From an uncultured Chitinophagaceae bacterium (lineage in GTDB: Bacteria > Bacteroidota > Bacteroidia > Chitinophagales > Chitinophagaceae), in contig CAITVK010000122.1 of the NCBI GenBank assembly GCA_903895845.1, positions 1 through 64,000 of the forward strand: 64,000 nt of DNA, in the 5' to 3' direction. This document shows, in pieces, positions 51,868-63,206 of this stretch. Numbering within the stretch: position 1 is the stretch's first letter; the number at the start of each line of letters is the position of its first letter. Position numbers and translations under genes: made by a program. The notes under the pieces were generated by a model. It was not told the origin of the DNA and ran no database searches. It saw only the letters and a list, made by a program, of their open reading frames with translations.

Positions 51868-52611
51868 TTATTTGCTATCACCTTTCTCGATACCCAACAA
51901 TTCTACAGTGAAAATCAAGGTAGAACCTGGAGCAATACTAGGACCCGCTTGTTGATCGCCATAAGCTAAATCAGAAGGAATATATAATTTCCATTTGCTA
52001 CCTACAGTCATTAATTGTACCGCTTCTTGCCAACCTTTAATAACGCCATTCAAAGGGAAAGTGATAGGTTCGCCTCTATCTACAGAGCTATCAAATACTT
52101 TTCCGTTAATCAACGTACCGTGATAATGACATTTTACTTTATCAGTCAACAACGGATGGGTTGTGTCGCTACCTGCTTTAATTACTTCGTATTGTAAGCC
52201 ATCCGGTAAGACTTTTACACCTGGTTTCTTTGCATTAGATGCCAAGAAATCTGCTCCTTCCTTTTTAGCAACAGCAGATTTTGCATCCATAGCTGCTTTG
52301 TGATAAGATTCTAAACTAGCATCTATCAAAGAATCGGGTATGGCCAATGTTTTGTTTTGCAATACATCGCCTATGGCTCTTTTCAATAAATCCTGGTTTA
52401 CACCATCAAACCCTTGTGACTTTAAATTTTGCGCAATACGAACGCCAATACCATAACTGGCAGTATCAGAATTGGTTTTAAAAGGCGAAGCTGAAGTATT
52501 GGCAACGGCTGGTTTTGCCGCAGGCTTTTTTACCACAGGCTTCTTTACATCTTGAGCGTTGATAGAGATTGCAACAACAGTAGTTACGATTAGGAGTGCT
52601 GTTTTTTTCAT
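51868..52611 (-). CDS. FKBP-type peptidyl-prolyl isomerase, FkpA/Mip-like
   Basis: The 247-residue precursor has a signal peptide (MKKTALLIVTTVVAISINAQ), a lysine/proline/alanine-rich linker, an FKBP_N dimerisation domain from TASYGIGVRIAQNLKSQGF (about 50-125), and a C-terminal FKBP domain with VKCHYHGTLINGKVFDSSVDRG, VIKGWQEAVQLMTVGSKWKLYIP and GPSIAPGSTLIFTVELLGI. It would be a dimeric periplasmic folding factor. It lies after argH but has its own gap of 21 bases, so co-transcription with the arginine operon is possible. Confidence 0.93.
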   Translation of the reverse strand: MKKTALLIVTTVVAISINAQDVKKPVVKKPAAKPAVANTSASPFKTNSDTASYGIGVRIAQNLKSQGFDGVNQDLLKRAIGDVLQNKTLAIPDSLIDASLESYHKAAMDAKSAVAKKEGADFLASNAKKPGVKVLPDGLQYEVIKAGSDTTHPLLTDKVKCHYHGTLINGKVFDSSVDRGEPITFPLNGVIKGWQEAVQLMTVGSKWKLYIPSDLAYGDQQAGPSIAPGSTLIFTVELLGIEKGDSK

Positions 52612-52632
52612 TTTTTTAATTGTAAATGTTTA

Positions 52633-53964
52633 TTAATTAACTAATTTATTGATGGCGTCGTGCACCTTTTGAAAGCCAAACATAGTAAACGTTTCTTCCA
52701 TCATCGAATTTATTTCTGAATTACATAAATTTCCAATGGTTCCTTCGTGTGTATGGTGGATATCGATGCTATAATTGAAGGCATTATTCTCAATTGCACG
52801 GCCTACCTGTTTGTAGGCATCGCGGAAAGGAATTCCTTGTAAAACAAGCTTGTTTACTTCCTCTACACTGAAAATGTATTTATACTTTTCATCGGTAAGA
52901 ATCTGTTCCTTTACCGTAACATTACTCAGCATAAGTGTTGCCATTTTGATGCAATCCTTCAACGTAGTAAACGCAGGGAAAAGATGTTCCTTCAATAATT
53001 GTAAATCGCGGTGATACCCACTAGGTAAGTTGGTGGTCATCATCATGATCTCGTTTGGCAATGCCTTGATACGGTTGCAATGACTACGAATTAATTCAAA
53101 AACATCCGGATTCTTTTTGTGTGGCATTATGCTGCTACCAGTTGTTAGTTCTTGAGGGAACGAAACAAAATCAAAGTTTTGATTAAGGTATAAACACATA
53201 TCCATGCTTAACCTTGCCAATGTTTCGGCTACGTTAGCCAACGCTTGTGCGGTGATACGTTCCGCTTTGCCACGTCCCATTTGAGCGTACACTACGTTAT
53301 AATTAAGATTGTCAAAGCCTAATAACTTAGTAGTCAAGGTACGATTGATGGGAAAAGAAGAACCGTAACCAGCAGCTGAACCAAGCGGGTTTTTATTAAC
53401 CACTTTATAAGCAGCCTTTAGAGTGATTACATCATCCACCAAACTCTCTGCATACGCACCAAACCACAATCCAAAAGATGATGGCATTGCTAATTGTAAA
53501 TGCGTATAACCAGGGAATAAATGATTTTTGAATGCTTCGCTTTGAGACTGTAACAAGGAGAAGAAAGGAAGGATCGTGTTAACCAAGTCTTCAATCTCGT
53601 TACGAAGAAATAGTTTAATATCTACCAACACCTGATCGTTGCGACTACGGGCAGAATGTATCTTCTTACCCATCTCGCCCAACTTCTCTGTTAATAGAAA
53701 TTCTATTTGCGAGTGAATATCCTCAACTCCGTCCTCTATCTTAAAGTCCGTACCAAGCGTTCTTAGGTAAATAGATTGTAATTCCTTAACGATAATATCC
53801 TTTTCTTCATTTGTCAACAGGCCAATGGTAGCCAACATGGTAACGTGCGCAATAGACCCCAATACATCGAAAGGGGCAAGGAGCAAATCCATTTCACGGT
53901 CTTTACCTACGGTGAATGTTTCTACTTCCTTAAGCGAGGTGATATCTTTTTGCCAGAGTTTCAA
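52633..53964 (-). CDS. argH: Argininosuccinate lyase
   Basis: This 443-residue fumarase-superfamily enzyme splits argininosuccinate to arginine and fumarate, the last step of the pathway. HSARSRNDQVLVDIKLFLRN near residue 102, HLQLAMPSSFGLWFGAYAE near 155 and TGSSIMPHKKNPDVFELIR near 271 with the catalytic serine are in place. It is the last arginine gene of the operon and shares a heptad repeat with argE upstream. Confidence 0.95.
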   Translation of the reverse strand: MKLWQKDITSLKEVETFTVGKDREMDLLLAPFDVLGSIAHVTMLATIGLLTNEEKDIIVKELQSIYLRTLGTDFKIEDGVEDIHSQIEFLLTEKLGEMGKKIHSARSRNDQVLVDIKLFLRNEIEDLVNTILPFFSLLQSQSEAFKNHLFPGYTHLQLAMPSSFGLWFGAYAESLVDDVITLKAAYKVVNKNPLGSAAGYGSSFPINRTLTTKLLGFDNLNYNVVYAQMGRGKAERITAQALANVAETLARLSMDMCLYLNQNFDFVSFPQELTTGSSIMPHKKNPDVFELIRSHCNRIKALPNEIMMMTTNLPSGYHRDLQLLKEHLFPAFTTLKDCIKMATLMLSNVTVKEQILTDEKYKYIFSVEEVNKLVLQGIPFRDAYKQVGRAIENNAFNYSIDIHHTHEGTIGNLCNSEINSMMEETFTMFGFQKVHDAINKLVN

Positions 53965-53967
53965 AGT

Positions 53968-54002
53968 AGTGATAAGTTATGAATGATGAGTTATGAGTTA
54001 AA
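53968..54002. repeat. Heptad repeat, five units, across the argE stop
   Basis: Units AGTGATA, AGTTATG and AATGATG fill the argH-argE junction and cover the argE stop codon (53998). Confidence 0.75.
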
Positions 54003-55059
54003 GCACAAGTTGATTCAACAACTTAACGTAAGTATTTATTCCGTCCTCGAGCTCAGACACATAAATATATTCGTCGGCAGTATGGCTTCTAGCACTGTCG
54101 CCAGGTCCCATTTTTAAAGTTGCAAAAGGCATCAATGCTTTGTCACTTGTTGTTGGGGAACCATAATAACCTTTACCTAAAGCAATCCCTGCCTTTACCA
54201 AAGGATGATCTAGAGCGATAGAAGTCGATTTCATTCTGGTAGTCCTAGGCTTGAACTGACTCTTTAAGTTATGTTTCAAAGACTCTAATATTTCCTCGAA
54301 TGTGTACAGCTCGTTTACACGAACATCTATCACAAACTTGCATTGGGAAGGGACTACATTGTGCTGTTTGTTTTCAGTATCGATAACAGTAACAGTCAAC
54401 CTTGACTCGCCCAATAAATCGCTTACCTTTTCAAATTTGTAATCACGAATCCAGTTAATATCATCTATTGCTTTATACAAAGCATTTTCCCCTTCGTTGC
54501 GAGCTGCATGTCCAGCGCGACCTTGAGCCGTACAATCAATCACCATCAACCCACGTTCTGCAACAGCCATTTCTAGTTTAGTAGGCTCGCCTACAATACC
54601 GAAGTTGATGTTTCCTAAGTAAGGCAAAACCAATTCTATCCCATTCACCCCGCTGATTTCTTCCTCGGCACTTGCTGCAAATACAACATTGTATTTCAGG
54701 TTATCCTGATGGTAATAATGCAAGAAAGTAGCAATCAACGAAACCAAACAACCACCTGCATCATTACTTCCTAATCCAAATATCTTCCCGTCTTTTTCTA
54801 TCGGCGTGAAAGGATCCATCGTGTAGCCTTTGTTGGGCTTCACAGTATCGTGGTGCGAGTTTAACAGGATACTTTCCTTATTAACATCATACGATTTATT
54901 CTTAGCATAAATATTATTGCCTACTCGAGAATAAGGGATGCCATGCTCATCGAAGAAAGCTCCTAATATCTCTGCCGTCTCATTCTCTTCCTTGGAAAAA
55001 GAAGGGGTAGCAATCAATAGTTTCAGAAGCCTTATCGCTTCATCGGTCAAATGTTTCAT
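53998..55059 (-). CDS. argE: M20-family N-acylornithine deacylase
   Basis: This 353-residue metallopeptidase-type enzyme hydrolyses the N-acyl group of an arginine precursor. LLNSHHDTVKP near residue 66 (metal-binding H and catalytic D), GSNDAGGCLVSLIATFLH near 98, ASAEEEISGVNGIE near 130 (catalytic E-E) and the C-terminal SARSHTADEYIYV are the M20 motifs. Operon position implies the arginine pathway. In a transcarbamylase-type pathway the true substrate would be N-acylcitrulline, so the classic ArgE name is used only loosely. Confidence 0.88.
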   Translation of the reverse strand: MKHLTDEAIRLLKLLIATPSFSKEENETAEILGAFFDEHGIPYSRVGNNIYAKNKSYDVNKESILLNSHHDTVKPNKGYTMDPFTPIEKDGKIFGLGSNDAGGCLVSLIATFLHYYHQDNLKYNVVFAASAEEEISGVNGIELVLPYLGNINFGIVGEPTKLEMAVAERGLMVIDCTAQGRAGHAARNEGENALYKAIDDINWIRDYKFEKVSDLLGESRLTVTVIDTENKQHNVVPSQCKFVIDVRVNELYTFEEILESLKHNLKSQFKPRTTRMKSTSIALDHPLVKAGIALGKGYYGSPTTSDKALMPFATLKMGPGDSARSHTADEYIYVSELEDGINTYVKLLNQLVL

Positions 55060-55104
55060 TTTATTCTTTTAATATTTCAAAGCCTCCATGTTTCCCTTCA
55101 GGGG

Positions 55105-55887
55105 TTAGGGGTTTATTGTCGTACCAGCCTCACCAGTAATCAGTTGTTGCAGTTGTTCTGCCTTGCCAATAATCACTTTACTAACTCCACTATTTATAGC
55201 TGCAAAAGCATTATCCAACTTAGGAATCATCCCTGCAAAAATGACTTGCTTCTCTTTCAATTCACTGTAAGTTGTTGGATTGATAGATGGAATTACACTT
55301 GCATCATCATCTGCATTCATCAATACCCCACTCTTTTCAAAACTATAAATCAATTCAACATCATAAATACTACTCAATGCTTTAGCCGTTTCCTGTGCAA
55401 TAGTGTCTGCATTTGTGTTTAGCAATAAGCCATTTCCATCATGCGTAATGGGTGCTAATACAATTGCTATATTCTGTTCTAAGAGACTTTTCAACAGCCC
55501 CGTATTTACTTCATCCACATCACCAACAAATCCATAATCAATAGTTGGGTGATTTCTTTTATGCGCCTTGATGGCATTTCCATCAGCACCAGTCAATCCT
55601 ATTGCATTGCAACCATTGGCTTGCAATTGTGCCACCACATTCTTGTTGATAGCACCTGCATAAACCATAGTAACAATCTTTAGGGTAGCAGCATCTGTAA
55701 TACGTCTGCCATCAATCATCTGTTGTTCAATGCCTAAATCAGCAGCTAGTTTAGTCGCCAACTTACCGCCTCCATGCACCAAAATTTTCAATCCCTCCAC
55801 AGCAGCAAAGTCCCTGATAAACGCAGCAAGCTTCACTTCGTTATCAATGATGTTGCCCCCAATCTTTATGACATATAATTTCTTCAA
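55105..55887 (-). CDS. argB: N-acetylglutamate kinase (N-acylglutamate kinase)
   Basis: This 260-residue amino-acid-kinase-fold enzyme phosphorylates the gamma-carboxylate of N-acylglutamate. VIKIGGNIIDNE near residue 6, LVHGGGKLATKLAADLG near 37, and NTNADTIAQETAKAL near 157 are family blocks. The length is that of the unregulated, non-arginine-sensitive form. Whether the acyl group is acetyl or succinyl is discussed under argF'. Confidence 0.93.
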   Translation of the reverse strand: MKKLYVIKIGGNIIDNEVKLAAFIRDFAAVEGLKILVHGGGKLATKLAADLGIEQQMIDGRRITDAATLKIVTMVYAGAINKNVVAQLQANGCNAIGLTGADGNAIKAHKRNHPTIDYGFVGDVDEVNTGLLKSLLEQNIAIVLAPITHDGNGLLLNTNADTIAQETAKALSSIYDVELIYSFEKSGVLMNADDDASVIPSINPTTYSELKEKQVIFAGMIPKLDNAFAAINSGVSKVIIGKAEQLQQLITGEAGTTINP

Positions 55888-55900
55888 TGCTATTCTTTTA

Positions 55901-55956
55901 CTTACTACTTAATACTTACAACCTACTACGTATTACGTAAAACGTATAACGTACTA
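55901..55956. repeat. Heptad repeat, eight units, entering the argF' stop
   Basis: Eight exact 7-base units run from CTTACTA types to CGTATTA and CGTATAA types. The last three bases are the argF' stop codon. Confidence 0.9.
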
Positions 55957-56949
55957 CTTCTTCCCTTTTAATATTTCCGCCAACACCGCTTGTGCTGCCC
56001 AAACCCTGTTACCTGCTTCTTGCGTCACAATACTATTCGGACTATCCAATATCTCATCGCTAAGTTCCACATTTCTTCTCACAGGAAGACAGTGCATCAC
56101 CTTCGCATTATTGGTCAAAGCCAACTTTTCCTTGGTTAGCATCCATCGTGGATCGTTGGTGTGCATCTTTCCATAATCATGGTAAGTACTCCAATTCTTC
56201 ACATAGATATAATCGGCATCAGCCAAAGCCTCATCCTGATTTTGATTGATTGTGGCTCCCTTTGTAAACTTTTCATCCAACGCATAACCTTCAGGATGCG
56301 TAATTACAAAGTCCGCCTCGCCCCAGGCATTGATCCATTCTGCAAAACTATTTGCCACACACTGAGGCAAAGGCTTTACGTGAGGTGCCCAAGTAAGTAC
56401 CACCTTAGGACGTTTTTTTGTTGATGGATTAGCCAACAAATCTTCTTGAATCGTAATAATATCCGTGAAAGATTGAAGAGGATGTAACGTAGCACTCTCC
56501 AAACTTACCACCGGTACGCCCGCATATTTGATAAACTGATTCACATACATTTCGCTGTAATCATCGGTCCGGTTTTGCAAGCTAGGGAAAGTTCTTATCG
56601 CCAATATATCAAAGTATAAACCCATTATCGGGGCGGCATCCTTAATGTGTTCAACGGTGTTGCCACTCATGATGGCACCTTCTTCAAATTCCAATGCCCA
56701 ACCTTCCTTATCCACATTAAAAACAATTGCCTCCATTCCCAGATTCTGAGCAGCAACCTGTGTACTCAATCTTGTACGCAAACTCGGATTGAGAAATAAA
56801 AGCCCGATACGTTTATTAGCCCCCAATGCCTTATCTATCATCGGATTGGCCTTATATGCCAATGCCTTTTTAGCCAAATCGTTGATGGCCGCACCAATAT
56901 TTGGTTGCGAAGGCGTTATTAAGTCATTAACCGAAATAAATTGTTTCAT
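55954..56949 (-). CDS. argF': N-acyl-L-ornithine carbamoyltransferase
   Basis: The 331-residue transcarbamylase makes N-acylcitrulline from N-acylornithine. FLNPSLRTRLSTQ near residue 52 is the carbamoyl-phosphate loop of the Bacteroidetes/Xanthomonas N-acylornithine type, HPLQSFTDIITIQE near 155 and HCLPVRRNVEL near 287 complete the active site. ATG at 56949 is preferred to an eight-residue longer form at 56973. The substrate-discriminating position just before E-H is Val99, where succinylornithine enzymes have Pro and acetylornithine enzymes Glu, so a succinyl substrate is favoured. Confidence 0.9.
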   Translation of the reverse strand: MKQFISVNDLITPSQPNIGAAINDLAKKALAYKANPMIDKALGANKRIGLLFLNPSLRTRLSTQVAAQNLGMEAIVFNVDKEGWALEFEEGAIMSGNTVEHIKDAAPIMGLYFDILAIRTFPSLQNRTDDYSEMYVNQFIKYAGVPVVSLESATLHPLQSFTDIITIQEDLLANPSTKKRPKVVLTWAPHVKPLPQCVANSFAEWINAWGEADFVITHPEGYALDEKFTKGATINQNQDEALADADYIYVKNWSTYHDYGKMHTNDPRWMLTKEKLALTNNAKVMHCLPVRRNVELSDEILDSPNSIVTQEAGNRVWAAQAVLAEILKGKK

Positions 56950-57009
56950 AATCCAAACCCGCTTCTGCGGCATATTTTGATGATAAAATAATTATGTTTT
57001 GCTGCATCC

Positions 57010-57135
57010 AAAGCGTATACCTTCTGTCACAAAGCGTACACGTTCTGTCGTAAAACGTACAGGTTCTGTCACAAAGCGTATACGTTTTGTCATAAAGCGT
57101 ATGCGCTTTGTCGTAAAGCGTACACGCTTTATGCT
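57010..57135. repeat. Tandem array, six 21-base units (AAAGCGTACACGTT...)
   Basis: Six units start at 57010 and every 21 bases. AAAGCGTA and a central ACGTT/CTGTC block are kept; cores such as CGTATACG are self-complementary. The last unit overlaps the argD stop codon at 57129-57131. The array lies inside the arginine operon and would be in its mRNA. Confidence 0.92.
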
Positions 57136-58271
57136 TTCAATAATGCAATAGCCCCCTTCAAAGCCTTCAAAAATTCATCCGCATGTTCCTTGGTTAAAGC
57201 CAATGAAGGCAATAAACGGATAACATTTGGCTTCGCCTCCCCAGTAAAAACCTTGAATTCAGTAAGCAATGTCTTCTTCAAATCCATCAAGTCTTCCGGT
57301 ACATCAAAGCCAATCATCAAGCCTCTTCCACGAACATTTTTTATCCCTTCAATACCCTTCAACTCTTCAATAATATATGCACCCAATTCTTTTGCGTGAT
57401 TAATCAATCCATCTTTTTCTATCACTTCCAACACTGCCAAAGCCGCCGCACAGGCCAGATGATTGCCACCGAAAGTAGTGCCCAGCAAACCATATTTAGC
57501 CTTGATATGTGGCGCAATCAAGATGCCGCCGATAGGAAAACCATTGCCCATACCCTTCGCCATAGAATAGATATCGGCATTAACGCCCGCACAATCGTGA
57601 GCAAAAAACTGTCCGCTCCTGCCATAACCACACTGAACACTATCAGCAATATATACCGCATTGTACTTGTCGCACAAAGTTCTAATTAATTGTAAAAAAC
57701 TAGTATTAGCCAAAATAATTCCTCCAACACCTTGGATACCTTCTATGATAACCGAAGAAATCTCATTGCCATGTTTTTCAAAGCAAGCAGTAAGAGCCGC
57801 TTCGTCATTAAATGGAAGAAAAATAATGTTATCAGTTTTATTAACAGGGGCAACGATAGATAGATTATCAGTAGCAGCCACCGCCAAAGAAGTACGTCCG
57901 TGAAAGGACTTGCTAAACGCAACTACCTTCTTTTTTCCATTATGGAAGCTAGCAAGTTTAAGCGCATTCTCATTTGCTTCTGCACCACTATTACAAAGGA
58001 ATAGCTGATAATCTTCCTTACCGCTCACCTTTCCCAACTTTTCAGCTAACTGCGCTTGGATAGGAATGATGATAGAATTAGAATAAAAAGCAATCTTTTC
58101 CAACTGCTCTTCAATGCGTTTCACCCAATGAGGATGTGTATGCCCGATACTAATTACTGCGTGACCGCCATACATATCCAAATACTGCACACCATTTTCA
58201 TCCCAAACATTGCTTCCAATTGCTTTGGTAATAGTGATATTGTTGAGAGGATATACGTCGAATAATTTCAT
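57129..58271 (-). CDS. argD: N-acetylornithine aminotransferase (N-acylornithine aminotransferase)
   Basis: This 380-residue class III PLP aminotransferase converts N-acylglutamate semialdehyde to N-acylornithine. LDMYGGHAVISIGHTHPHW near residue 32, NSGAEANENALKLA near 95, DSVQCGYGRSGQFFAH near 207 (cofactor-binding D) and SMAKGMGNGFPIGG near 233 (Schiff-base lysine) are all there. Its 3' end runs into the 21-base array. Confidence 0.94.
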   Translation of the reverse strand: MKLFDVYPLNNITITKAIGSNVWDENGVQYLDMYGGHAVISIGHTHPHWVKRIEEQLEKIAFYSNSIIIPIQAQLAEKLGKVSGKEDYQLFLCNSGAEANENALKLASFHNGKKKVVAFSKSFHGRTSLAVAATDNLSIVAPVNKTDNIIFLPFNDEAALTACFEKHGNEISSVIIEGIQGVGGIILANTSFLQLIRTLCDKYNAVYIADSVQCGYGRSGQFFAHDCAGVNADIYSMAKGMGNGFPIGGILIAPHIKAKYGLLGTTFGGNHLACAAALAVLEVIEKDGLINHAKELGAYIIEELKGIEGIKNVRGRGLMIGFDVPEDLMDLKKTLLTEFKVFTGEAKPNVIRLLPSLALTKEHADEFLKALKGAIALLKA

Positions 58272-58274
58272 TTG

Positions 58275-58309
58275 AGTTGAGAGTTATTAATTATGAAATA
58301 CGAGTTCTA
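58275..58309. repeat. Heptad repeat, five units, argD-argC junction
   Basis: AGTTGAG, AGTTATT, AATTATG and related units fill the gap and overlap the argC stop at 58307. Confidence 0.75.
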
Positions 58310-59308
58310 AAACCCTGCGCCTTTAAGTTTAAGCCCCAGCGTTTCTTCAAGACCAAAAATCAAGTTCATATTCTGTACCGCTTGTCCAGAAGCTCCTTTT
58401 AGCAAGTTATCTATGACTGAATGAACAACCACTTTATTGCCTACAATCTCAATATTGATAATACACTTATTGGTGTTTACCACTTGCTTTAGATTAATGG
58501 GTTCAAGCGATATTTTAGTAAAAGGTTCATTCTTATAAGCAGCCTTGAATACTTCCAATATCCTATCCTTACCCCAGTTACATTTAAAAGTAGAACTGAT
58601 GAAGATGCCTCTTGTGAAATCTCCCCTCCAAGGAACAAAGTTTAGGTCTAAGGCTTCAACCCTGTTACCAGTTTCTGCTTGTAATAAAGATTGTATTATC
58701 TCTGCATTATGCTGATGGGTCAATGTTTTGTAAGGGGATATATTATTGGCTCTCCAGCTAAAGTGTGTGGTTGCACTCAAACTTTGCCCTGCACCGGTGC
58801 TGCCTGTAATACCTGTAGTGTAAACATCTTCATTCAAGAAAGCACCTTCTTTAGCAAAGGGTAATAGTCCTAATTGAATAGCTGTAGCAAAACAACCTGG
58901 GTTAGCAATGCTATCTGCTTTCTTTATTTGTTCCCTGTTTAGTTCAGGTAACCCATAGACGAAGTTTCTTCCTTTTATGTTGGCATCAGCCTTCAAGCGG
59001 AAGTCGTTTCCTATATCAATCAGTTTTACTTCTGGGGCAATTTCATGTTCCAACAAGAACTTCTTTGCCTCTCCATGACCCGCACAAAAGAAAATTACAT
59101 CAACAAAGTCTTTTGTTAGAGGTGGGATGGTCGCAACAAACTTGATGTCGGTATCGCCAATCAAATCTGCATGAACCTTACTCAATAAATTGCCCGCATT
59201 GCTTCCACTTTGCACAAAAGCAATCTCTGCCTGTGGGTGATTAATCAGTAACCTAATCAATTCCCCACCTGTATATCCTGCACCGCCTATAATTCCTGCT
59301 CTTATCAT
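58307..59308 (-). CDS. argC: N-acetyl-gamma-glutamyl-phosphate reductase
   Basis: The 333-residue NADPH-dependent reductase has GIIGGAGYTGGELIRLL at the N-terminus (Rossmann loop), SIANPGCFATAIQLGLLP near residue 133 (catalytic cysteine) and HQHNAEI near 194. Length corresponds to the standard form. It acts after ArgB on the acylglutamyl-phosphate and lies in pathway-related order beside argD and argG. Confidence 0.95.
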   Translation of the reverse strand: MIRAGIIGGAGYTGGELIRLLINHPQAEIAFVQSGSNAGNLLSKVHADLIGDTDIKFVATIPPLTKDFVDVIFFCAGHGEAKKFLLEHEIAPEVKLIDIGNDFRLKADANIKGRNFVYGLPELNREQIKKADSIANPGCFATAIQLGLLPFAKEGAFLNEDVYTTGITGSTGAGQSLSATTHFSWRANNISPYKTLTHQHNAEIIQSLLQAETGNRVEALDLNFVPWRGDFTRGIFISSTFKCNWGKDRILEVFKAAYKNEPFTKISLEPINLKQVVNTNKCIINIEIVGNKVVVHSVIDNLLKGASGQAVQNMNLIFGLEETLGLKLKGAGF

Positions 59309-59320
59309 TTCTAAAGTTTT

Positions 59321-59390
59321 ACGTTGTACGTTTTAAGTTATACGTTAAGGAACGTGCAACGTAAAACGTATAACTTATAACGTATTACTT
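59321..59390. repeat. Heptad repeat, ten units, argC-argG junction, entering argG
   Basis: Ten 7-base units change from ACGTTTT types to AAAACGT types, an imperfect hairpin. They cover the argG stop and its last four codons (Ser-Asn-Thr-Leu), so the repeat shapes the protein end. Confidence 0.9.
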
Positions 59391-60583
59391 GCTTGAACCT
59401 TATTCCAAATAGAAGTCTGGTTCCCGAATATCTTACTGAAACCACGAACATCTTCTCCAGTAAAGCCTGTATTCATTTCACCATATTTACCAAACTTAGC
59501 ACTCATCAAATCGTAGTTACTTTCTATTCCTATTATCTGGAAACGATATGGCAATAATTGCACAAACACATCGCCCGTAACGTTTTGCTGACTATTGGTT
59601 AGATAGGCTTCAATATCGCGCATTACTGGGTCAAGAATCTGACCTTCATGCAACCAGTTTCCGTAAAATTGCGCTAATTGATCTTTCCAGTTTAATTGCC
59701 ACTTAGTAAGCACGTGCTTCTCTAAAGCGTGGTGTGCTTTTAAGATAACCATTGGAGCAGCGGCCTCAAAACCAACACGTCCTTTAATACCAATTATAGT
59801 ATCTCCTACATGTATATCTCTACCAATACCATATCCACCTGCTATGGTTTGTAAGTATTGTATAGCCAGAGAAGGGTGACTGAATACTTGGTCATTTATT
59901 GCTTTCAATTCGCCTTTTTCGAAGGTTAGTTTTACTTCTTCTGCTTCATTCTTGGTTACTTGTGTAGGCCAGGCGCTTTCTGGAAGAATCCCCTTACTGT
60001 TCAATGTTTCCTTACCGCCCACACTCGTTCCCCACAAACCTTTATTGATGCTGTACATGCTTTTCTCAAAGTTCATGTCCACATTCTTGCTTTTTAGGTA
60101 AGCAATTTCTTCTTCCCTACTTAGTTTCAAATCACGTATTGGGGTAATGATCTCCACACCCGGAATCATGATATGAAAAATCATATCAAACCTCACTTGG
60201 TCATTTCCTGCGCCCGTGCTGCCGTGTGCAACTGCTGTAGCATTCAGTTTCTTGGCATGTTCTGCAATGTGCAAGGCCTGACTCAAACGTTCGGCACTCA
60301 CACTTAGCGGATAAGTATTGTTCTTCAAAACATTGCCATAAATAAGGTACTTTATAATGCTATCGTAATAATCTTCTACTGCATTAATGGTAACGTGCGT
60401 TTTCACGCCCAACTTATAAGCGTGTGCTTCAATGTGTTTCAACTCTTCCTCACCAAAACCACCTGTGTTTACAATGATGCTATGCACATCAAAACCCCTG
60501 TCTTCTGTCAGATATTTTACGCAATAAGAAGTATCCAATCCACCACTAAAGCCTAGTACTATTTGTTTTCTAGTTTCACTCAT
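59375..60583 (-). CDS. argG: Argininosuccinate synthase
   Basis: This 402-residue ATP-pyrophosphatase ligates citrulline and aspartate. GFSGGLDTSYCVKYL near residue 12 is the nucleotide loop, GSTGAGNDQVRFD near 125 and SMYSINKGLWGTSVGG near 196 the substrate blocks. It is the second gene of the operon, nine bases after the GNAT gene. The last four codons lie in a heptad repeat. Confidence 0.96.
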   Translation of the reverse strand: MSETRKQIVLGFSGGLDTSYCVKYLTEDRGFDVHSIIVNTGGFGEEELKHIEAHAYKLGVKTHVTINAVEDYYDSIIKYLIYGNVLKNNTYPLSVSAERLSQALHIAEHAKKLNATAVAHGSTGAGNDQVRFDMIFHIMIPGVEIITPIRDLKLSREEEIAYLKSKNVDMNFEKSMYSINKGLWGTSVGGKETLNSKGILPESAWPTQVTKNEAEEVKLTFEKGELKAINDQVFSHPSLAIQYLQTIAGGYGIGRDIHVGDTIIGIKGRVGFEAAAPMVILKAHHALEKHVLTKWQLNWKDQLAQFYGNWLHEGQILDPVMRDIEAYLTNSQQNVTGDVFVQLLPYRFQIIGIESNYDLMSAKFGKYGEMNTGFTGEDVRGFSKIFGNQTSIWNKVQASNTL

Positions 60584-60592
60584 CGTTTATAA

Positions 60593-61324
60593 TTATTTTA
60601 TTGTCAATTTCAGGATTACCAAAAGAATTAGGAAGCCAAAGATAGATTTCAGTAAGTTTCCACTTTTCTTTTCATCTTTCTTGTAAAACCATTTCAGTAG
60701 TTTGCTCTGCTTTATGCTGTTAAAGCGTTCATATACTTTAGAATGTTCTTTAAAGTTGTCAGCAGTTTCCTTTGGTTCGTAGTGATCTTTTGGGTCGAAA
60801 AGCATGGCTGTACACATACAGTTCTTCCTTTCTTTGGTCATCAATATGTCGTAGTTAACGCAGCTTTTGCAACCTGCCCAAAAGTCTTCATCATCGGTCA
60901 GTTCGCTGTATGTAACAGGCTCGTAACCAAGGTCGCTGTTTATTTTCATCACAGCCAATCCTGTGGTCAATCCAAATATCTTGGCTTCGGGATATTTCTC
61001 TCTTGATAAAGCAAAGATGGTTTGTTTGATTGTTTTGGCTACACCACTCTTTCTAAATTCTGGTGCCACTATCAGTCCGCTATTGGCTACAAACTTGCCG
61101 TGGCTCCATTCTTCTATGTAGCAAAAGCCCACCCATTGTCCTAGTTTGGTCAATGCGATGACTGCTTTTCCTTCCAACATTTTTGCTGCAATGTATTCTG
61201 GGCTTCTCTTGGCAATTCCGGTTCCCCTTGCCTTGGCAGACGATTCCATTTCGTCTGTAATCCTGATTGCGTAATGTGTATCGAGGTTATTAGCTACACG
61301 AACAATAATATCTTGTTGTTCCAC
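60593..61324 (-). CDS. ArgA-like GNAT acyltransferase with cysteine cluster and C-terminal membrane helix
   Basis: This 243-residue protein probably makes N-acylglutamate, the first step of the pathway, since no other ArgA or ArgJ is in the operon. Residues 1-150 are a GNAT fold with VAPEFRKSGVAKTI near 86-99 as the acetyl-CoA loop. Four cysteines follow (C152, C155, C169, C171), a possible metal site. Residues 224-242 are one hydrophobic helix that may anchor it to the membrane. The start is GTG; no ATG precedes the fold. It heads the operon behind a structured leader. The substrate is an inference from position. Confidence 0.78.
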   Translation of the reverse strand: MEQQDIIVRVANNLDTHYAIRITDEMESSAKARGTGIAKRSPEYIAAKMLEGKAVIALTKLGQWVGFCYIEEWSHGKFVANSGLIVAPEFRKSGVAKTIKQTIFALSREKYPEAKIFGLTTGLAVMKINSDLGYEPVTYSELTDDEDFWAGCKSCVNYDILMTKERKNCMCTAMLFDPKDHYEPKETADNFKEHSKVYERFNSIKQSKLLKWFYKKDEKKSGNLLKSIFGFLILLVILKLTIK

Positions 61325-61361
61325 TGTATAAATAAGTTATAATATTCGAAATAATTGTTGA

Positions 61362-61539
61362 TTGTGCCAGCATCTAAAAATAAGAGATGCTAAAGAGGTC
61401 GGAATATTTCACTGATAGGGGCAACTGGCAAAATGCTCGGCCTATCAGAAACCGGGGCGTGGTCGTGGAGAGAAAATAAAAGCAGGCACAACAGTCGTAG
61501 ACTGTGATGCTTTATTATATGAAGTTGTGTTTTTCAACT
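61362..61539 (-). ncRNA. Structured leader RNA of the arginine operon, possible cis-regulatory element
   Basis: On the minus strand the leader has a 5' hairpin (61523-61539), a stem of AAAGCA with TGCTTT (61508-61513/61479-61484) enclosing ACAGTC-GTA-GACTGT, a hairpin CTGATAGG/CCTATCAG (61441-61448 with 61412-61419), and a hairpin AGCATCT/AGATGCT (61385-61391 with 61369-61375). TTGTGCC at 61485-61491, inside the loop of the second stem, is perfectly complementary to GGCACAA at 61362-61368. It would form either the closing helix of a three-way junction or stay in the loop. The element is GC-richer than its surroundings. No known riboswitch class was recognised. Confidence 0.5.
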
Positions 61540-61570
61540 GCTCTTTTATTTAATGATTAATTTGAGGTAG

Positions 61571-61578
61571 CAAAAGTA
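61571..61578 (-). promoter_or_regulatory. Promoter -7 element of the arginine operon (TACTTTTG)
   Basis: TACTTTTG on the minus strand matches TAnnTTTG exactly and would start a leader of about 240 bases before the GTG of the GNAT gene. No clear -33 TTTG is seen. Confidence 0.5.
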
Positions 61579-61643
61579 TATAGAATATATGGATTATAGT
61601 ACATTTAATTTAAAAAAGGCAGGTTAAAAGAGGTATTAATTTT

Positions 61644-61664
61644 TAGTGATTAGTGTTTAGTTGG
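61644..61664. repeat. Short heptad repeat, three units
   Basis: TAGTGAT, TAGTGTT and TAGTTGG follow one another upstream of the arginine promoter. The same unit type is found at 17218. Confidence 0.6.
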
Positions 61665-61961
61665 CAAAAGGAAGTAGAAAAATATTGTAAGAATTGTCTT
61701 TTTAGTTTTGCTAAGCATCTGGTTTACTAATTTATTATATCTGTTACTAACAAAGTGTAAATACCCATTCATATCCTTTAATGTGTTCTTAAAATTACTT
61801 TGCGTTTTTATTTTATCCTAATCTTGATAAGACTTAACCTTCCGACAAATGCCTTTGGTGCTGAAAAAAAGGAACAAAAAGGTGTATTCACAAAACAAAT
61901 TACAATCAGTTATTAGAATATAAAAATGACTATAAAAAGGCAATCTTGAAATTGCTCAACC

Positions 61962-62270
61962 ATGGGTGGAAAAGTAATAAAAAATATTGGTTATGTTAAG
62001 GAAACTGAAGCAGGTGATAAAATTTCTAAATCTAAAATATTGGAAGGGATAAAAGCTGTGCGTTGAGATATGAAGCATAATAGAATTGGAGACTAAAAAG
62101 ACGCATGCCAAAGACTTCTTGAGATAATTATTACAACTATTGTAGAGGTTTGAAATCGGATATAGTGGCCTTAGTAAAAATCCTTCACTAAAAGCTGAAT
62201 TAGCCGAACTCTTACTTAAATACTTCAAAAAAATTAGCCATGCTAGCCACTGTTTTTACCCACATTTTAT
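61962..62270 (+). pseudogene. Decayed coding fragments, possible toxin-antitoxin pair
   Basis: A 34-codon frame from ATG at 61962 reads ...ISKSKILEGIKAVR then a stop, followed by K-H-N-R-I-G-D; this resembles the C-terminal half of small antitoxins (E-G-I-K-A-V pattern). After frame changes, near 62177-62270, N-P-S-L-K-A-E-L-A-E-L-L resembles the helix of RelE/ParE-type toxins (Y-P-S-L-K-x-E-L-x-E-L). Both are broken by stops and shifts. The assignment is tentative. Confidence 0.4.
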
Positions 62271-62405: not shown

Positions 62406-63206
62406 ATGGCAAGAATAATAGGTGTAGCAAATCAAAAAGGGGGAGTAGGTAAAACAACTACCGCAATAAATGTGGCGGCAAGCCTTGCTGTACTCGAATA
62501 TAAGACGCTGCTTGTTGATGCAGATCCACAAGCGAATAGTACCACTGGTACTGGCTTTGACTTGCACAATATCACCAGCAGTTTGTATGACTGTATGGTG
62601 AATAATGCCAAGGCTGAGGATGTGATCCTTAAAAGCGATATCCCTCATCTGGATGTATTGCCTAGTCATATTGACCTTGTTGGTGCGGAAATAGAAATGA
62701 TAAACTATCCTCATCGCGAGAACGTGATGAAGAATATTCTTCAAGCCGTGAGGGATAGATATGATTTTATTGTGATTGACTGCTCACCTTCTCTTGGATT
62801 GATAACTGTGAACTCGTTGGTGGCTGCTGATAGTGTGATTGTGCCTGTACAGTGCGAGTTTTTTGCGTTGGAAGGATTGGGAAAACTACTGAATACCGTA
62901 AAGATTGTTCAAAGCAGGTTGAACCCGCAATTGCAGATTGAAGGTATCCTGATGACGATGTATGATGGAAGATTGCGCTTGTGTAATCAGGTGGTGAGTG
63001 AACTGAGAAGACATTTTGATGACATCGTATTTGCTACCATCATCCATAGAAATAGTAAATTGAGCGAAGCGCCAAGCGTTGGTAAGCCTGTAATTTTATA
63101 CGACTCCGATAGTAAGGGTGCTAATAATTACCTGAATCTGGCTAAGGAAATTCTTCAGAAGAATGAGATGACGAAGATGACTAATGAAGAAAGGATATTG
63201 GACTAA
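62406..63206 (+). CDS. parA: Chromosome-partitioning ATPase ParA (Soj)
   Basis: The 266-residue deviant Walker ATPase starts [25 protein letters not shown], the P-loop with its signature lysine, followed by [14 protein letters not shown] near residue 36 and [18 protein letters not shown] near 118. It binds DNA non-specifically and moves ParB-bound origin regions. It is 96 bases upstream of parB, with a heptad repeat in the gap. ParAB genes usually lie near the replication origin. Confidence 0.96.

Follow-up and report, generated by a model that had tools for sequence, protein, structure and literature searches.

The window, a stretch of 64,000 nucleotides from an uncultured Chitinophagaceae bacterium, carries on its minus strand an arginine biosynthesis cluster in the order GNAT-argG-argC-argD-argF′-argB-M20-argH, with an FKBP-type gene in the last position (Table 1). 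The names of argB, argH and the FKBP-type protein were given by reading the translations, and the argD match lies below its curated cut-off. No NCBIfam name was matched for the GNAT protein, a candidate for acyl transfer in the arginine pathway that possibly binds metal; the closest named locus (L115) encodes a GNAT protein 88% identical to it. Ten aligned homologues of the protein share invariant Cys residues at C68, C152/C155 (CxxC spacing) and C169/C171 (CxC spacing). Beside the cluster and divergent from it, a ParA-like (62406–63206) and a ParB-like (63303 to the end) gene were read from their translations on the plus strand. Bacteroidetes promoters have the −7 consensus TAnnTTTG, and the −7-like element TACTTTTG is situated ~240 nt from the GNAT start codon (61324), with TACTTTT found in 7 of 9 same-genus leaders.

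Table 1. Coordinates of the features of the arginine operon and its leader in the window
Feature	Position	Strand	Basis and remarks
Promoter-like −7 element TACTTTTG	61571..61578	−	Position; Bacteroidetes-like motif
Leader ORF, 30 codons, MKNTTSYNKASQSTTVVPAFIFSPRPRPGF-stop	61445..61537	−	TTG start presumed; tail S-P-R-P-R-P-G-F-stop
Hairpin of the earlier note, then TTTTATTTT, inside the leader ORF	61473..61510	−	−11.6 kcal/mol; TTTTATTTT 4 nt after the hairpin
Leader Arg codon CGA	61463..61465	−	
Leader Arg codon CGC	61457..61459	−	
Leader stop codon TGA	61445..61447	−	
Hairpin P1	61412..61448	−	CTGATAGG (61441–61448) pairs with CCTATCAG (61412–61419); covariation; covariance model R1
P1 loop segment TGCCAG	61425..61430	−	Candidate partner of downstream CTGGCA; loop complementarity
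Second local hairpin P2 (AGCATCT / AGATGCT)	61369..61391	−	Leader folding
CTGGCA, complementary to the P1 loop	61365..61370	−	Overlaps GGCACAA; loop complementarity
GNAT-family gene, first of the operon	60593..61324	−	GTG start; Pfam GNAT match below cut-off
argG, argC, argD, OTC-type carbamoyltransferase (argF′), argB, M20 peptidase (argE-like), argH, FKBP-type protein	51868..60583	−	Remainder of the cluster

An earlier note on this DNA, made from the sequence alone, had proposed a regulatory RNA in the leader of the arginine operon. Such a leader is real and lies on the minus strand, and comparison with related leaders showed a leader peptide and a stop-codon hairpin in it. The leader RNA folds better than its shuffles (z −2.99; 1 of 200 shuffles was equally good). 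The absence of any known riboswitch was confirmed: at the gathering threshold Rfam gave for the whole window one tRNA elsewhere and nothing in the leader, and with E up to 5 a search of positions 61250–62000 gave nothing useful, only one chance match (E 1.6). The long-range pairing of TTGTGCC (61485–61491) with GGCACAA (61362–61368), on which a two-state switch had been built, is present but at chance level and not conserved. Dinucleotide shuffling of the leader, done 300 times, gave 194 sequences with a perfect complement of at least 7 nt at a distance of at least 60 nt, and the real leader itself contains a longer one (9 nt). Of nine same-genus leaders three have GGCACAA, and one of these three is altered on the TTGTGCC side. 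As a pairing partner the GGCACAA segment does seem to keep a place, since its GGCA (within 61365–61370) faces the P1 loop TGCCAG, though not TTGTGCC. P1 covaries among homologous leaders. The hairpin described as terminator-type is likewise real, and all nine same-genus leaders fold a hairpin there (−5.3 to −14.0 kcal/mol). The hairpin of the window is, however, situated within the leader ORF and fails a strict test for a hairpin followed by a U-run. In the ORF region 3 of 68 leaders of the window's type (type A, see below) pass this test, the window not being among them. The place of P2 holds GGAYTGGTNATCC in many relatives. As for the suggested ligand- or translation-controlled switch, control by translation is possible, while a ligand-binding switch found no support.

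For the comparison we collected upstream regions of GNAT homologues, the gene being present in 33 of 59 genomes of relatives and in 231 of 294 genomes of the family, with 80 further loci from named genomes. The 194 upstreams taken, a part of the GNAT matches found, left 158 non-redundant leaders after removal of 36 (near-duplicates and cut or masked upstreams); kinship among leaders enters all the shuffle and permutation comparisons made with them. In nearly all usable upstreams there is a small ORF with Arg codons at its end, two in the window leader with one Pro codon between them. By a measure which, like the tail classes A–D used below, was picked after a first look at the peptides, at least three Arg codons among the last seven of some ORF were found in 92 of 158 leaders vs. 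2.6 in dinucleotide shuffles, and at least two in 145 of 158 vs. 22.7. The same tail test for the other 19 amino acids in the 158 leaders gave no excess comparable to that of Arg. With codons for the pathway product in a short upstream ORF, the translation of which is putative, these leaders bear a mark of amino-acid leader-peptide regulation in the broad sense.

The peptides fall into four classes by their tails: type A (n = 68, the type of the window) ends in R-R-G-C/F and similar, type B (n = 39) in RRPR-I/L, type C (n = 29) in ..RR, and type D (n = 8) in P/I/V-R-I/V, the last coming entirely from more distant named loci, e.g. Pedobacter, Mucilaginibacter and Cyclobacteriaceae. Fourteen of the 158 leaders stand outside these classes; by eye, ten of them are variant-like (L007, L021, L030, L059, L078, L081, L082, L127, L165, L168) and four are not (L176, L177, L185, L189). 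In type B the codon at −2 is Arg in 39/39 leaders, with all six Arg codons in use, the codon at −3 is Pro in 38/39, with four codons in use, and the codon at −1 is Ile or Leu in 38/39. As the residues at −2 and −3 are kept with varied codons, selection acts on the peptide. The first two Arg codons of type B are nevertheless CGA in 39/39, and over all leaders 214 of the 415 Arg codons within the eight final positions are CGA, which also opens 128 of 135 RR pairs. Elsewhere this codon is rare, with 3 of 104 among the Arg codons of eleven CDS in the window and 48 of 639 among those of the GNAT genes. Attenuators pick codons sensitive to limitation (PMC1183508). Arg-poor tails (L069, L112 and type D) fit tRNA sensing less well. 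In the type C leaders L024, L084, L103 and L105, CATAGT after VRR-stop could, as judged by eye, pair either locally or with a downstream ACTATG, a possible switch of different build.

The stop codon of type A is UGA (68 leaders) and is contained in the 5′ arm of P1, a hairpin with an inner stem and a conserved internal loop (consensus CTGAYAGG-ACGA-RCC...GGY-C-CCTRTCAG). In the unclassified leader L007 UGA is changed to UGG and the stop follows one codon on. Among 86 distinct sequences, 94.1% of the P1 pair cells are standard pairs vs. 32–42% in slid controls, and 100 cells are changed on both sides vs. 35.3 in shuffles. Two of five covariation measures were not above shuffles (both-side-changed pairs, 4 vs. 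3.3; further pair types, 12 vs. 11.0), because six of the eight outer pairs never vary and are hence uninformative. The sequence of P1 is conserved beyond the needs of a mere alternative hairpin. For the stop codon and the three following nucleotides the mean probability of pairing downstream is 0.98 in the 68 type A leaders vs. 0.50 with shuffled downstream RNA; the pairing is weak in type B (0.46 vs. 0.36), and types C and D do not exceed their shuffles. P1 as such is therefore shown for type A only, and a stop-codon hairpin could not be established in types B, C and D, though their downstream RNA folds better than shuffles.

Of 294 family genomes 92 were hit by a covariance model of P1 (R1), 95 times in all and once in the genome studied here. 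A GNAT place was among the matches listed for 83 hits, and 82 of these lie 42–85 nt upstream of the GNAT match. Of the 13 other hits 11 were read: GNAT follows in 7 (in one, at a contig end, judged by its first codons), proC follows in 3, and 1, in G281, is coding. Other candidates were set aside as well: six places with the P1 pattern but no R1 hit (five stretches, L326–L330) looked by eye chance-like, being coding sequence or palindrome, and a further reading frame that would run across P1 in many leaders of type A (L-[IT]-G-R..Q-stop) is broken, again by eye, by hairpins of 35, 37 and 38 nt. Masking of the P1 5′ arm left the predicted accessibility of the GNAT start unchanged in type A (0.552 vs. 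0.554), and as it was without effect in types A–C and changed the value by −0.03 in D, sequestration of the start site via P1 was rejected. The freed 3′ arm pairs downstream with a value of 0.43 vs. 0.41 for shuffled RNA (75 leaders, secondary structure without pseudoknots). No alternative structure for the fed state was found by these arm-masking and 3′-arm pairing predictions.

The loop of P1 appears to contact the RNA shortly before the gene. The mean best score of this complementarity was 6.12 in 90 leaders, near-duplicates included and kinship ignored, vs. 5.09 (sd 0.11) with shuffled downstream RNA; in 200 permutations of the partners the mean was 5.37 (sd 0.11) and the highest value 5.73. 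Forty-four leaders combine a loop ACC with a downstream TGGT; in 27 of them the neighboring variable base is complementary, compared with a permuted mean of 14.8, and 0 of 5000 permutations reached 27, a test in which near-duplicates were again included and kinship was ignored. Some of the type A leaders gave no sign of the contact.

In three of five sampled genomes of one genus an arginine-type P1 precedes proC (L195, L196, L197), the pyrroline-5-carboxylate reductase gene, named by reading its translation. The leader peptides there, MKRDIIHIAFFVPCPPPGC, MTGYNFHNASFVPCPPPGC and MTDHLSHISFSFPSPAPGC, for two of which longer starts are possible, keep the hairpin and the G-C-stop and have Pro codons in place of Arg. 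Since the same P1 goes with Pro codons before proC, the codons follow the product of the pathway, and we regard this version as the strongest single argument for the predicted sensing of codons. No clear leader peptide was seen before proC in 30 loci of relatives, to which the three positive genomes do not belong, or before ilvD in 30 loci, two of them without usable upstream.

Leaders of the histidine and tryptophan operons served as controls. Those of hisG (L206–L235) encode peptides with a His run, in this genome MNTTGILHHYYHVIPNG (L216, contig C18), and have a stop-codon antiterminator and a terminator with a U-run, as in textbook attenuators; many trpE leaders (L266–L295) encode a WWW peptide, e.g. 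..QWWWHTNSSGVL, with a terminator hairpin and U-run. Thirty upstreams were taken for each gene, and of those with the codon run a downstream hairpin with U-run was found in 23/23 for hisG and 26/28 for trpE. After the arginine leader ORF it was found in 0/68 leaders of type A, 4/39 of B, 2/29 of C and 0/8 of D, in a test that starts 30 nt before the stop, the in-ORF hairpin having been tested apart. These data indicate that leader-peptide control is general in these bacteria and that its output is what sets the arginine version apart. Of the marks of a classical attenuator, an intrinsic terminator between ORF and gene was not found in type A, nor an alternative partner of the 3′ arm in the 75 leaders. 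We also searched for the arginine repressor. Of 59 relatives none matched PF01316 and one, at the cut-off, matched PF02863; among 14 controls both models match in Bacteroides and others. ArgR was thus practically not found in the 59 relatives.

Taken together, the comparison of sequences supports the leader ORF, its Arg tail, P1, the loop contact, the near-absence of ArgR and the lack of an intrinsic terminator after the ORF. We predict with good confidence that the leader of the arginine operon is a leader-peptide sensor of Arg-tRNA supply, and control is very probably exerted by this supply and not by classical terminator attenuation. In the proposed mechanism, the ribosome would translate the short leader ORF, with Arg among its last codons. 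When Arg-tRNA is short it would stall on the CGA-enriched Arg codons, presumably sensing charged tRNA, and when Arg-tRNA is ample it would reach the UGA stop. As the stop is in the 5′ arm of P1, the position of the ribosome would decide on the formation of P1 and the loop contact. A ribosome covers ~12 nt past the A-site codon. On the Arg codon four before the stop its leading edge would be located at about the first base of P1, and on the stop codon it would cover the whole 5′ arm and melt the hairpin. Starvation should then allow P1 to form, and plenty should oppose it until release, which in types B and D could be slowed by apidaecin-like tails (a resemblance only), prolonging the hold on P1. 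P1 and the loop contact may keep the mRNA productive through stability, avoidance of Rho or favored translation of GNAT. Decay or Rho seems likelier than occlusion of the start site, because accessibility of the GNAT start is independent of P1 and the 3′ arm has no better partner. The output is the weak part of this mechanism, and that P1 is specifically the ON state is a tentative assignment to which we give somewhat less than an even chance.

The polarity may also be the opposite one, with P1 forming after normal termination and Rho or an RNase acting in the linker, so that a stalled ribosome hinders P1 and turns the operon on. We consider this a real possibility, if short of probable: type A lacks an intrinsic terminator after the ORF, a rho gene is present in this genome, and the stop-to-gene linker of type A has more C than G (0.249 vs. 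0.174). The excess of C is, however, a weak sign that recurs in the upstream controls of ilvD and proC, and by the geometry given above P1 would remain largely uncovered by a ribosome that waits on the Arg codon at −4 or on one before it. A classical attenuator with antiterminator and intrinsic terminator, or termination at the in-ORF hairpin when the ORF is untranslated, would follow the logic found before hisG and trpE in these same relatives, and the recurrence of an in-ORF hairpin with a T-rich stretch in all nine same-genus leaders suggests that it could end transcription of untranslated RNA. Yet the near-complete set of terminators in the his and trp controls against none in type A, and the few type A leaders passing the strict test within the ORF, make this reading highly improbable.

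Two further explanations place the sensor elsewhere than in the decoding of Arg codons. TnaC and SpeFL are peptides that sense their ligands by arrest of the nascent chain, and in the same manner the tail of the leader peptide (RRPRI, TPRI, MPRV) might bind the exit tunnel, slow release and sense arginine or an intermediate directly. The conserved non-Arg residues of type B (Pro at −3, Ile/Leu at −1) and the P/I/V-R-I/V-stop kept by distant relatives, some with few Arg codons, would agree with this, and apidaecin, with penultimate Arg and C-terminal Leu, arrests terminating ribosomes (PMC11549390, PMC11347161). We hold arrest to be unlikely, as type A mostly ends in G-C/F and the like and not in R-I/L, the proC version trades Arg for Pro but keeps G-C-stop and hairpin, and the strong preference for CGA points to decoding. 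A riboswitch binding arginine or a pathway intermediate, to which the ORF would be incidental, could account for the highly conserved internal loop and the loop contact of P1. It would leave aside the amino-acid-level constraint on the type B ORF, the CGA bias, the stop codon built into the stem, the Pro codons with the same hairpin before proC and the empty Rfam search, and we judge it very improbable. Sensing of Arg-tRNA supply by the leader peptide therefore stays our preferred reading.

The leader offers a concrete candidate for control of arginine synthesis in a bacterial group where ArgR is practically not found. Control by its leader peptide would proceed without a terminator after the ORF and with a hairpin module of its own, apparently serving proline too in one genus. 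More speculatively, we propose a portable RNA module of Bacteroidota, in which a hairpin around the stop codon, having a conserved internal loop and making a kissing contact near the first gene, would convert the position of the ribosome on an Arg (in one genus, Pro) leader ORF into terminator-free gene control, possibly assisted by a release-slowing tail; on the present comparison this broader idea is doubtful. The covariance model is available for finding more such hairpins, and the question of the output is testable in culturable relatives, e.g. Chitinophaga or Pedobacter. Among the literature matches listed (titles and starts of abstracts) there is no report of an arginine leader peptide in Bacteroidota, and the available parts of PMC8632094, PMC2965389, PMC4833913 and PMC7366714 contain none; a prior prediction is possible, e.g. 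Lopatovskaya (2010).

Known systems resemble this leader in different respects. With the his and trp attenuators of these bacteria it shares a leader ORF with codons for the pathway product and a paired stop segment (in his, GGGTAAGC with GCTTACC, by eye), but the type A arginine leaders lack the terminator hairpin and U-run after the ORF. In Flavobacterium psychrophilum strong indications of attenuation by leader peptides are reported ahead of amino acid operons (PMC9723704), in a passage that mentions neither an arginine operon nor a stop-codon hairpin. Apidaecin contacts the release factor and the P-site tRNA with its penultimate Arg and last Leu (PMC11549390, PMC11347161), and the C-terminal Arg-Leu of apidaecin-type PrAMPs resembles the tails of types B and D, a resemblance for which no homology is claimed. 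Apidaecin is, however, a free insect peptide, and most type A tails are without an Arg-Leu end. The study on the Salmonella speF leader (PMC6386406) describes a pause at consecutive Arg codons that lets a hairpin downstream of the stop form and a pause at the stop codon that prevents it; mRNA stability follows the hairpin, Rho is involved as well, and an intrinsic terminator was not observed. Type A and speF orf34, as portrayed there, have in common Arg codons in a short ORF, a hairpin at or after the stop and the lack of an intrinsic terminator. They differ in that speF regulates ornithine decarboxylase in gamma-proteobacteria, here replaced by arginine synthesis, that its regulatory Arg pair is early in the ORF, and that the hairpin here overlaps the stop and has a conserved loop contact; the peptide core HIRRT..HIM given in the same study was not seen by eye in the arginine leader peptides. 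On these grounds we suggest speF orf34 as the closest model of the arginine leader, by way of likeness and not of homology.
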